Shown: one piece after another, positions 17,890 through 41,287 of the stretch | Position numbering within the stretch: the first letter of the stretch is position 1 | Layout: every line of letters starts with the position of its first letter | Assembly: GCA_017458675.1 (NCBI GenBank) | Contig: JAFTAM010000080.1 | Span: 1-41,287, forward strand | Length of the DNA stretch: 41,287 nucleotides | Direction: 5' to 3' | From: a bacterium | Lineage (GTDB): Bacteria > Vulcanimicrobiota > Xenobia > Xenobiales > Xenobiaceae | The notes under the pieces: generated by a model | What the model was told of the DNA's origin: nothing | Seen by the model: the letters and a program-made list of their open reading frames with translations, nothing else | The model's database searches: none | Translations under genes and position numbers: made by a program

Positions 17890-18236
17890 GCTATTGTGAG
17901 CGCAGCGAAGAATTTGAAGCTTATATAGATCCTTCGCCTGTCGGCTCAGGATGACAATGCAGGTCCTGTCATCCCGAGCGCAGCGAAGAATTTGAAGCTT
18001 GTATAGATCCTTCGCCTGTCGGCTCAGGATGACAAGACAGGCCCTGTCATCCCGAACACGGCGAAGAACCTGAAGCTTAATATAGATCCTTCGCCTGTCG
18101 GCTCAGGATGACAATGCAGGTCCTGTCATCCCGAACACGGCGAAGAACCTGAAGCTTATATAGATCCTTCGCCTGTCGGCTCAGGATGACAATGCAATTT
18201 CTGTCATTCTGAGCGCAGCGAAGAATCTTTGTTCTG
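17890..18236 (+). repeat. Tandem array of the palindromic repeat, 78-79 bp period
   Basis: Units start at about 17890 (worn left end), 17968, 18046, 18125 and 18203 (left half only). Each full unit is about 66 bp, from GTCATCCCGAG to GGCTCAGGATGAC, plus a 12-bp linker such as AATGCAGGTCCT. Two forms alternate: GAGCGCAGCGAAGAATTT (17890, 17968) and GAACACGGCGAAGAACCT (18046, 18125). The internal part is 9 bp shorter than in the scattered 75-bp copies. Confidence 0.9.
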
Positions 18237-37701: not shown

Positions 37702-38973
37702 ATGAAAAACAACAAATTCGCAGGGAATGTCTTTATCGCCGACAGGGCCGAAGAATACGGGGCTTACCGCCGCAGCGCTCTGAAAAAGGCGATCATTCCC
37801 GACGGCATCGTAAAAATCGGTTTCTATGCCTTTGCGGGCAGCGGCCTGGAAAGCGTAATTATTCCCGACAGCGTGCGGTCGGTCGGAACCGGCGCTTTTG
37901 AGGACTGTTCTGCCTTAAAGAGCGCGATTCTGCCCGATGGCTTAAATACGGTCGCGTCCGGCTTGTTTGCCGGCTGCGGAGCTCTGGCCGGGGCTGTCGT
38001 TCCTGAGGGCGTCTCCGTAATCGGCGGCTGGGCTTTCAGCGGCTGTACGGCTCTGAAGAGCGTCGTTCTGCCTGGGAGCACAAAAATAATAGGGCAGAGC
38101 GCCTTTGAGAACTGCGCCGCTTTAAGGGAAATTGAGCTTCCGGACAGCGTTGCCGAAATCTGCGCGTCGGCCTTCAGAGGCTGCTCCTCTCTGAAGAGAG
38201 CGGCTGTTCCTTCCGGCGTCGCGGTTCTTGAGGAGAGCGTCTTTGCGGACTGCACCGGTCTGGAAAGCGCCGCTCTGCCCGAGGGCTTGACAGGGATAAA
38301 GGCAGAGGCCTTCTGCGGCTGCGTCAGCTTAAAGCATATTGTGCTTCACGCCAGCGTCAGGACGCTTGAGGACAGGGCTTTTGCGGGCTGCTGCAGCTTG
38401 GAGAGCATAACCGTTCCCGACGGCGCAGAGCTTTTCGGCAGCGATATTTTTGCCGATTGCGCCGCTTTAAAGGAGATAATCTGGAGGGGCGTAAGCTATG
38501 CTTCCGCCGCTGAGTTTGGCGAAGCCGTCTCTGCCTGCAGAGTTAATTTTATCGCCGACGACGCCGCCGAAGATGAAGCTTATGTCGGCAGCGGCCTGAT
38601 AAGCGCGGCGGTCCCCGAAGGCGTCGGTCGCATCGGCAGATACGCCTTTGCGGGCTGCAGAAGCCTGGAAAGCGTTATTCTTCCCGGCAGCGCCGCTTCT
38701 ATAGGCGAAGGCGCTTTTGAAGACTGCGAAAGCTTAACCGGGATAACCCTTCCCGAAGGCGTAAAGCGCATCGGCGGCGACGCCTTCAGAGGCTGCGCCG
38801 GCCTGAATCGGATAACTCTGCCCGATAGCATAGAGGAAATTGAACTCAACGCTTTCGCGGGCTGCGTCAGCCTGGAGAGCATAACCTTCAGAGGCCGGCG
38901 CTATACGGACAAGGCTGCCTTCAATAAAGCGGCGGCGGAATGCGGAGTGAGCGTCCGCGAGCTCTGGATTTAG
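37702..38973 (+). CDS. LRR_5 (BspA-like) leucine-rich repeat protein 11
   Basis: A 423-residue, two-module protein. The leader is MKNNKFAGNVFIADRAEEYG then RRSALKKAIIPDG. The junction lies at about 38475-38620 (IIWRGVSYASAAEFGEAVSA...ADDAAEDEAYVGSGLISAAVPEG). It is of the divergent type seen in genes 1 and 6. The tail FRGRRYTDKAAFNKAAAECG ends LWI. GAGGTG lies 5 bases before the ATG. It is separated from the other ten LRR genes by the ATPase/FtsK/peptidase block and directly abuts the phage tail genes. No signal peptide. No family terminator follows. Confidence 0.92.
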   Translation: MKNNKFAGNVFIADRAEEYGAYRRSALKKAIIPDGIVKIGFYAFAGSGLESVIIPDSVRSVGTGAFEDCSALKSAILPDGLNTVASGLFAGCGALAGAVVPEGVSVIGGWAFSGCTALKSVVLPGSTKIIGQSAFENCAALREIELPDSVAEICASAFRGCSSLKRAAVPSGVAVLEESVFADCTGLESAALPEGLTGIKAEAFCGCVSLKHIVLHASVRTLEDRAFAGCCSLESITVPDGAELFGSDIFADCAALKEIIWRGVSYASAAEFGEAVSACRVNFIADDAAEDEAYVGSGLISAAVPEGVGRIGRYAFAGCRSLESVILPGSAASIGEGAFEDCESLTGITLPEGVKRIGGDAFRGCAGLNRITLPDSIEEIELNAFAGCVSLESITFRGRRYTDKAAFNKAAAECGVSVRELWI

Positions 38974-38998: not shown

Positions 38999-39457
38999 AT
39001 GAACGCTGCGGAGCGGACGGCGGTCTTAAACTTGCGCTGCGAGACCACCGAGCTGACCTTTACCTCTTCCGACTGGGTCGGACAGGGTGTAACCATTACC
39101 GCCATCCGAGACGAAAACAACTCGACCGCTCCTCTGGGCTATATCCGCGTTCATCACGGCAGCCAGAACAACGGCGGCCAGAACAACCAGAACGCCGGCG
39201 AGCCCGAGGGCATAGCCGTCAACGACGAGACCGTGACCTACAGCGTATCCGATTCGGCCTTCGTTTTGACTCACGCTCCCATCGTGGCCGGTTCCGTTGT
39301 GCTTAAATCGGCCGACGGCAATACCACTTATACCTTCAATACCGATTACACGGTAAACTATTCCACCGGTAAGATTACTTCTATTGAAGGCACGACCATG
39401 AGCTTCGCCGAGAACAGCACGATCAAGGCGAGCTACCGCTATACGCAGAGCGCGTAA
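38999..39457 (+). CDS. Phage virion-type protein, possibly 5'-truncated
   Basis: The C-terminal part (SAFVLTHAPIVAGSVVLKSA, then DGNTTYTFNTDYTVNYSTGK and ITSIEGTTMSFAENSTIKAS) has the beta-rich pattern common in phage tail and capsid proteins (GTDYTVDY.TGKI). The first 70 residues have no clear relative. The ATG at 38999 has no ribosome binding site and lies 25 bp after LRR gene 11. The frame may thus be the 3' part of a larger gene, such as a tail tube protein, cut when the LRR gene arrived. Its position before the tail-assembly chaperones fits a major tail protein. A strong terminator follows, so it ends its own transcript, as major tail proteins often do. Confidence 0.65.
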   Translation: MNAAERTAVLNLRCETTELTFTSSDWVGQGVTITAIRDENNSTAPLGYIRVHHGSQNNGGQNNQNAGEPEGIAVNDETVTYSVSDSAFVLTHAPIVAGSVVLKSADGNTTYTFNTDYTVNYSTGKITSIEGTTMSFAENSTIKASYRYTQSA

Positions 39458-39532: not shown

Positions 39533-39841
39533 ATGGACAGCTTCTTCAGCAGGCCCTTAGCGGAGCCGCCGCGCCGGATATGGACTCACGAGGAAAAGCT
39601 GGAGCTTTTCCGCCTCAAGAGCAGCGGTTTCAGCCTTTACCAACTGGCTGCAAGGTACGGCGTTCCGCCATATGAGATCCGCGAGGCTCTGCAGGAGATA
39701 GGGCAGGAAATGACTGCGCTTCAGCCGACGCGGGGCGTTTACAAACATTTTGAAGGCTACCACCGCCTTCCCGGCAGCGCCATGCCTAAAGCGCCGCGCC
39801 GCCGCCCCTTAGAGGATTATTTCAATGACGTTTTACAGTAA
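39533..39841 (+). CDS. Small helix-turn-helix-like phage protein
   Basis: A 102-residue protein with GGGGAAAG before the ATG. Residues about 18-55 (WTHEEKLELFRLKSSGFSLY, then QLAARYGVPPYEIREAL) have the pattern of a Myb- or homeodomain-like helix-turn-helix. The rest is basic and Pro-rich. It sits between the virion protein and the tail chaperones; a role in the tail module or as a small DNA-binding protein is possible. No family is recognised with confidence. Confidence 0.7.
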   Translation: MDSFFSRPLAEPPRRIWTHEEKLELFRLKSSGFSLYQLAARYGVPPYEIREALQEIGQEMTALQPTRGVYKHFEGYHRLPGSAMPKAPRRRPLEDYFNDVLQ

Positions 39842-39856
39842 AAGGAGTTTAATATA

Positions 39857-40225
39857 ATGGAATCTTTCATTCTTGAGAAAAGCACCCAGACCGTGGAAAT
39901 CGAAGGCCTGCCTTTCACGCTGCAGGAGATGAGCGCCAAAGAGCTGCGCGACTACACCAATCTGCAGCTGGCTCTGAACAAAGCCGTCAGAGAACTGCTG
40001 AGCAATCCCGAGAGCGCTTCCGCCGCCGCTCTGGAAGAAATCGAGCTCAAGCTGCTGCAGGCGGTGCTGCGCGACAAGGACGGCATCGTCGATAAAGACT
40101 TCCTGGAAGTTCTCAGCCCCAACCAGAAGAAGAGGCTCTTTGAGATTCAGGATTCCTTAAACGGCGTGGCCGACGTTCTAAAAAAAATTCAGAATACAAT
40201 AGCCGAGCAGGCGGCAGAGAAGTAA
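39857..40225 (+). CDS. Phage tail assembly chaperone, G-like (short product)
   Basis: A 122-residue, largely helical, acidic protein with AAAGGAG before the ATG. It fits the G-type chaperone that coats the tape-measure protein during tail assembly in siphophages (lambda gpG). Near its 3' end lies the slippery heptamer A AAA AAA (40180-40186). A -1 slip there joins it to the following frame and would give a 230-residue fusion. Most ribosomes should stop at TAA (40223-40225) and make the short form. The size, composition and position are typical; the exact family match was not checked. Confidence 0.82.
   Translation: MESFILEKSTQTVEIEGLPFTLQEMSAKELRDYTNLQLALNKAVRELLSNPESASAAALEEIELKLLQAVLRDKDGIVDKDFLEVLSPNQKKRLFEIQDSLNGVADVLKKIQNTIAEQAAEK
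40180..40186 (+). other. Programmed -1 ribosomal frameshift site (A AAA AAA)
   Basis: In the zero frame the codons are CTA AAA AAA ATT, so A AAA AAA fits the X XXY YYZ rule exactly; eight A residues run from 40180 to 40187. After a -1 slip the frame reads NSEYNSRAGGREVKARPNEG and onward without a stop to 40548. Frameshifting between the two tail-chaperone frames is conserved among long-tailed phages. Confidence 0.8.
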
Positions 40226-40548
40226 AGGCGCGTCCCAACGAAGGCCAGGGGCTCTATTGGCTCGGCATGGTCGAGCCCATCGCCGCCCGTTACGCCTTGA
40301 GCCCTCGGCAGATTTGGGAAACTCTGAGCTTCCGGCAGATAGTAATAATATCGAACTATATCGCCAGGGAAAAATATCGCGAGCAGGCCTTCGCCGCCGC
40401 TCTCCACGGCTGCAGTCAGGAGAAAAAGGACGAGCCAGTCTGGTGGTTAGGCGGCGACGAGGCTCCTTCCGATATCAAAGCCCGCTGTCTGGCCGAAATA
40501 GAAGAATACAAGCGCAGAAAGGCGTTGAGAAACCATGGAAAACAGTGA
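40186..40548 (+). CDS. T-like extension of the tail chaperone (made by -1 frameshift)
   Basis: The frame is open from the slip site to 40548 and adds 120 residues to the first 110 of the G-like protein. It contains GLYWLGMVEPIAARYALSPR, then QIWETLSFRQIVIISNYIAR. This aromatic, helical type of sequence is usual in the T part of gpGT. An internal ATG at 40267 exists but has no ribosome binding site, so independent translation is unlikely. The T part should recruit the tail tube protein to the tape measure. It overlaps the start of the next gene by 14 bp. Confidence 0.78.
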   Translation, partial: NSEYNSRAGGREVKARPNEGQGLYWLGMVEPIAARYALSPRQIWETLSFRQIVIISNYIAREKYREQAFAAALHGCSQEKKDEPVWWLGGDEAPSDIKARCLAEIEEYKRRKALRNHGKQ

Positions 40549-40930
40549 ACGCAAAGAGGACTGCCAACGAGCGGCCGCAGCAATATTCTATCAAATGATT
40601 GGAGACCGTATAAAAGAAGTAATTTCCGCTTCTTTTTACGGTGAGGGGCTAGATCAAGAAATTGAACCGGGGAAATATCGTTTGTACAGCACAGTACTTA
40701 AAACGTTCTGCCGCGATCTTTATATGACGGCTGAATGCGATTTTGATAAATTTTCGGACTTTTTAGCGGAAGCGCTGCTTAAGGATAAATGGCCCAAAGA
40801 GGAATTCGACAGATATGTCAACGAGTTTGCTCAACAGGTGTGCTACCACGAAATGCGGGCAAAATTAAAGAAGCGCAGATCTGAAGAAATAGACAATCTG
40901 ATTCTGCGGGACAACTACGCAGGGCGATGA
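40535..40930 (+). CDS. Unknown protein, paralogue of the next gene
   Basis: A 131-residue helical protein starting MENSERKEDCQRAAAAIFYQ, with a conserved core DFDKFSDFLAEALLKDKWPK and a charged end (RAKLKKRRSEEID). It overlaps the T-like frame and has no strong ribosome binding site, suggesting coupling. The core recurs in the next gene. No family is recognised. In a standard tail operon the tape measure gene would stand near here, so these two genes may be accessory insertions. Confidence 0.75.
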   Translation: MENSERKEDCQRAAAAIFYQMIGDRIKEVISASFYGEGLDQEIEPGKYRLYSTVLKTFCRDLYMTAECDFDKFSDFLAEALLKDKWPKEEFDRYVNEFAQQVCYHEMRAKLKKRRSEEIDNLILRDNYAGR

Positions 40931-40953
40931 GCGATAAGAAAGCGGAGGATAAT

Positions 40954-41287
40954 ATGGGGAAAAATAAACGCAAGGATTCTGAAGAACAGGTGGAGATTGC
41001 CGCTCTAATTTACAGCGCAGTGGCTGAACGCATACAAGAAGCCGCTGCAGCTTCTGTTTACGGCAGAGGCCGAAATCCTAGAATTAAGAGTATTGAAAAT
41101 GAATTTTTAGGCTATTTGATTAAGGGCGCCTGCGCAAAACTTTTCTCCAAGGCGGAAGGTAGTTTTGACAAGTTTTCGGACCTTTTAACGGAAGCGCTGC
41201 TTGAAGATAAATGGTCCGGAAAGAGCTTCAAGGACTTTGCAAGACGTTTTATCAACGCCGTGAGCTATTACCACGACCTGCGGAGAA
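40954..41287 (+). CDS. Unknown protein, paralogue of the preceding gene (partial)
   Basis: The ATG at 40954 follows GCGGAGG, and the frame is open to the window end (111 codons). It begins MGKNKRKDSEEQVEIAALIY and contains SVYGRGRNP and FDKFSDLLTEALLEDKWSG, matching FDKFSDFLAEALLKDKW in the gene before. The shared block plus tandem position show a local gene duplication. The 3' end is outside the window. Function unknown. Confidence 0.75.
   Translation, partial: MGKNKRKDSEEQVEIAALIYSAVAERIQEAAAASVYGRGRNPRIKSIENEFLGYLIKGACAKLFSKAEGSFDKFSDLLTEALLEDKWSGKSFKDFARRFINAVSYYHDLRR

Follow-up and report, generated by a model that had tools for sequence, protein, structure and literature searches.

A probable −1 frameshift in a tail assembly chaperone pair within a truncated prophage tail fragment

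Does a run of A near the right end of contig JAFTAM010000080.1, from a bacterium of the Xenobiaceae, mark a −1 frameshift that joins two tail assembly chaperone products, and does such a pair mean that a phage tail module lies beside it? The window considered here is the whole stretch of DNA that was analysed, 41,287 nucleotides in length. The kind of system at issue is already known: the tail frameshift is described as widely conserved among long-tailed phages (PMC5009743), and PRFect illustrates that annotations of such frameshifts are routine (PMC10274946). What the locus adds is a switch of slippery heptamer among relatives and a broken local tail module. The window very probably encodes a lambda G/GT-type chaperone pair that is expressed by −1 ribosomal frameshifting and that lies within a truncated, siphovirus-like prophage fragment. 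If so, the conserved tail-chaperone frameshift also reaches phages from a bacterial group that has been little studied.

The zero-frame product is a putative gpG-like tail assembly chaperone of 122 amino acids (39857..40225, + strand), assigned from its ORF, its homologues and its predicted fold; the ORF starts with ATG at 39857, 3' of a Shine-Dalgarno-like AAAGGAG, and stops with TAA at 40225. The sequence-only reading of this region had placed the slippery heptamer A AAA AAA at 40180..40186 (+ strand) in the correct phase, and this was confirmed, the heptamer being part of eight consecutive A (40180-40187; codons GTT CTA AAA AAA ATT) at a codon pair shared by homologues. Equally sound was its proposal that the −1 frame stays open as far as 40548 and joins the 122-residue G-like protein to a 120-residue extension. 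This frame (40144..40548, + strand) is assigned as a gpT-like extension from its openness, a conserved pattern and the lack of a start of its own; it overlaps the zero frame by 82 nt, and the part read after the slip (40186-40548, 120 residues, ending in TGA at 40548) would complete a fusion of 230 amino acids. We infer that −1 slippage takes place at this heptamer at some rate. Shuffling the codons of the chaperone gene placed an X XXY YYZ heptamer within the overlap in 4.8% of trials; in 0.6% of trials the heptamer was A AAA AAA. Scanning both strands of the window for in-phase X XXY YYZ sites whose second triplet is A or T, with a −1 frame running at least 200 nt past the zero-frame stop, returned 5 sites in 4 stop-to-stop frames, among which the chaperone site is the sole one on the + strand. 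By these figures the slip signal is by itself suggestive, and it is the homologues that decide.

Homologues of the chaperone protein were found in 4 of 98 genomes (the source genome and those designated G002, G003 and G006), and of 149 genomes from the phylum, 5, again including the source genome, matched a profile of the extension. Viral contigs contributed further chaperone homologues, namely L027, L028 and one G002-like contig; this last (L030/L029, a single contig nearly identical to G002 whose extension carries indels) was excluded from all counts. Loss of the slip phase in related prophages had been named as one observation that would refute the frameshift, and the opposite was found: an in-phase X XXY YYZ heptamer followed by a −1 extension is present in all seven scored loci, that is, in the window and in 6/6 loci outside it. 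The heptamer itself is not constant, being A AAA AAA in the window, G003, L027 and L028, G GGA AAC in G002 and G006, and C CCA AAC in G101. In the six loci that were aligned (the window and five others; G101 was left out of alignment-based counts), the slip site falls on one codon pair, with KK set against GN. A single family thus carries three heptamers, the first two of them at one aligned codon pair, and this switch, with place and phase kept, is the strongest evidence that the sequences offer for a probable frameshift. G_GGA_AAC is listed as a natural slip site, and in E. coli A AAA AAA is reported to shift less than A AAA AAG (PMC5009743).

The same comparison bears on a route in which RNA polymerase, rather than the ribosome, slips: an A would be added to the transcript in the eight-A run and the ribosome would read on unslipped. 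All eight A are kept in the window, G003, L027 and L028, one more than the heptamer needs, and the peptides expected from transcriptional and ribosomal slippage are identical (V-L-K-K-N), so that finding the junction peptide by mass spectrometry would not tell the two routes apart. However, no long single-base run stands at the corresponding place in G002 and G006 (G GGA AAC) or in G101 (C CCA AAC), which makes tRNA slippage the more likely shared mechanism, and we consider transcriptional slippage very unlikely. Still less credence is given to an arrangement of two overlapping, separate genes, the second of them started internally and free of any frameshift, which we judge extremely improbable. 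An ATG at 40267 in the −1 frame would indeed yield a product of 93 aa; however, this methionine is not conserved, and the codon lies 3' of the conserved GLxW block that opens the extension pattern GLxW...RQIV...AF...HG...EPxW found in the six loci. Moreover, ATG, GTG and TTG are all absent from the −1 frame 5' of that block in 5/6 loci, including the window; the sixth, G006, has one TTG, far upstream of the block.

The window is so far diverged from the other loci that synonymous rates are near saturation, and selection was for this reason read from the closer trio G003, L027 and L028 and from G002 and G006. In the first group the dN/dS of the extension frame is 0.06-0.13; in G002 and G006 the ratio is 0.55, calculated from few changes. 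The latter two loci show 0 differences over the 73 nt from the slip site to the zero-frame stop, against 32 in the 347 nt before the slip, and the identical stretch is 168 nt in all, with P about 5e-5 under an even spread of differences; recombination could be an alternative source of this identity. No consistent RNA structure was found 3' of the slip site in the six loci, the z-scores being -0.07, -0.32, -3.10, -1.34, -0.67 and -0.67. A tblastn search of INPHARED with the G002 chaperone and extension as queries gave no match, and when the window proteins were used as single sequences to scan viral contigs, no match was confirmed.

What family does the chaperone belong to? Neither window product has a convincing Pfam match; against PHROG the window products reach a chaperone family, phrog_1932, at 0.13, and phrog_344 is absent from the matches of the window chaperone. 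The G002 chaperone, in turn, matches phrog_344, a tail assembly chaperone family, at E 3.8e-05. Most family models miss the chaperones of phages in this bacterial group. An AlphaFold2 model built on the six-sequence chaperone alignment (pLDDT 69) predicts a hairpin followed by helices. With this model, Foldseek ranked the HK97 tail assembly chaperone (2ob9) first among PDB chains, at E 0.12, and VIA-align gave the same structure a Z of 5.8 and an rmsd of 4.0 over 92 residues, followed by a Vibrio cholerae PICI-like protein (5ir0, 5.5), YqbN (3klu, 5.1) and, in fourth place, a spider-silk domain (3.9). The predicted hairpin and helices are shared with 2ob9, whereas identity is only 15-16% and the scores are weak. 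Many tail assembly chaperone names appear among the 50 matches listed from a viral structure library, none with E < 0.001. The fold matches of the predicted model are thus weak in absolute terms; taken with the PHROG matches, they point to tail assembly chaperones.

Gene order in the relatives points the same way. A tail tube gene precedes the pair there, replaced in G101 by a long ORF, and a tape-measure-sized ORF lies directly 3' of the pair in all six. The L028 ORF resembles tape measures by Pfam (TMP_3, 4.1e-07, below the curated cut-off of that family), by PHROG tape measure models and by annotated phage tape measures, and the G003 and G002 proteins are similar to each other (E 1e-74); the label for G101, G006 and L027 is given by place and size, with similarity also listed for G006 and L027. 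The pair of the relatives is accordingly located between tube and tape measure genes, whereas the window has the tube side only, and that truncated. The earlier view that the two frames have the organisation of tail assembly chaperones thus gains support from the kept slip phase and extension, from the neighbourhood in relatives, and from the fold and PHROG matches.

As PMC5009743 describes for lambda, coating of the tape measure protein falls to the short product and recruitment of tube protein to the extended one, the two being present at a ratio of ~30:1. The likeness to lambda gpG/gpGT lies in a short chaperone with a −1 extension, an X XXY YYZ slip site and, in relatives, a place between tube and tape measure genes; the window proteins match no lambda-type chaperone family. 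The window is unlike lambda in its heptamer, in its truncated tube gene and in having no adjacent tape measure gene. By analogy, most ribosomes would stop at 40225 and release the 122-aa chaperone, and a minority would slip one base back, both tRNAs together, on A AAA AAA to make the 230-aa protein. The short form would then coat a tape measure protein and the extension would recruit tail tube subunits; we infer these roles from the lambda case.

Is there, then, a tail module at the right end of the window, as had been claimed? Tail genes do occur there, but as a fragment only. Upstream of the pair, a tail tube gene with an Ig-like domain is represented by its 3' part (39041..39457, + strand), the 5' part being missing; what is present matches the G003 tube protein at residues 129-284 and phrog_807 (8.7e-09). 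Between this fragment and the chaperone is a 102-aa ORF (39533..39841, + strand) with a weak helix-turn-helix-like match, for which no counterpart was found in the tube-chaperone interval of the relatives. The tape measure gene that had been sought further downstream is absent from the 739 bases left after the extension. Its place is taken by ORF A (131 aa; 40535..40930, + strand), which starts within the end of the extension and has no family match, and by its paralogue ORF B (36% identity; 40927..41287, + strand), which runs off the contig end at 41287. The window locus thus has no complete tube gene with an adjacent tape measure gene. In the source assembly as a whole (90% complete, 196 contigs), queries with the G003 and G002 proteins found no tape measure gene, the G002 query giving zero matches. 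One candidate was set aside: on contig C124 a match to the G003 tape measure was weak (E 0.001), and the surrounding genes look ordinary chromosomal. The lack of a tape measure gene and the broken locus suggest that the prophage is fragmentary here or that the assembly breaks within it, and a chaperone frameshift pair alone is no proof of an intact tail module.

This state of the neighbourhood leaves appreciable room, somewhat short of an even chance, for a decayed or mis-assembled copy, that is, for a pseudogene pair or for a leucine-rich-repeat region wrongly joined to the tail module of the prophage on contig C113; such a reading concerns the neighbourhood and is compatible with ribosomal frameshifting in the pair itself. 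The tube gene is truncated at 39040, the point at which homology to C113 begins, shortly past the end (38973) of a long BspA-type leucine-rich-repeat gene (37702-38973). C113 carries the head genes (terminase, portal and capsid) and ends inside its own tube gene, its last 119 bases being identical to window 39270-39388. Contig C16 holds a broken second copy of the pair from which the start and the slip region are missing, and the terminal 141 bases of C16 are identical to those of the window; this exact 141-base identity of C16 and C25 resembles assembly-graph ends. Against decay of the pair itself, the window copy has two intact frames, and start, ribosome site, slip site and extension are all kept. 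We give only a very slim chance to a retained orphan, in which a chaperone with a working frameshift, kept beside leucine-rich-repeat genes and lacking a tape measure of its own, would upset the ratio of chaperone forms in infecting phages or serve a phage satellite.

Contig C81 carries distal tail genes, which resemble those that relatives have 3' of their tape measure gene. Its start (L032 1-395), which lies 5' of these genes, has no long + strand ORF and hence no tape measure gene. ORF A has a short stretch in common with a small ORF (L022 14420-14806) from the early region of the prophage on C113 (31% over 32 residues, E 0.002). On C16 (L010 17766-18650), another gene body, presumably MazG-like, is bounded at its start and end by the same short sequences as the body of ORF A in the window, as if bodies had been swapped between fixed flanks. 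Several BspA-type leucine-rich-repeat genes, judged from translations, also occur on C16 (L010 3-11290), and genes of this type adjoin both copies of the tail fragment, in the window and on C16. Finally, a dispersed repeat of ~70-90 bases is common to the contigs, occurring in the window at 17893-18230 and other places, at L022 2390-2536 and 4430-4533, and at L010 5458-5567.
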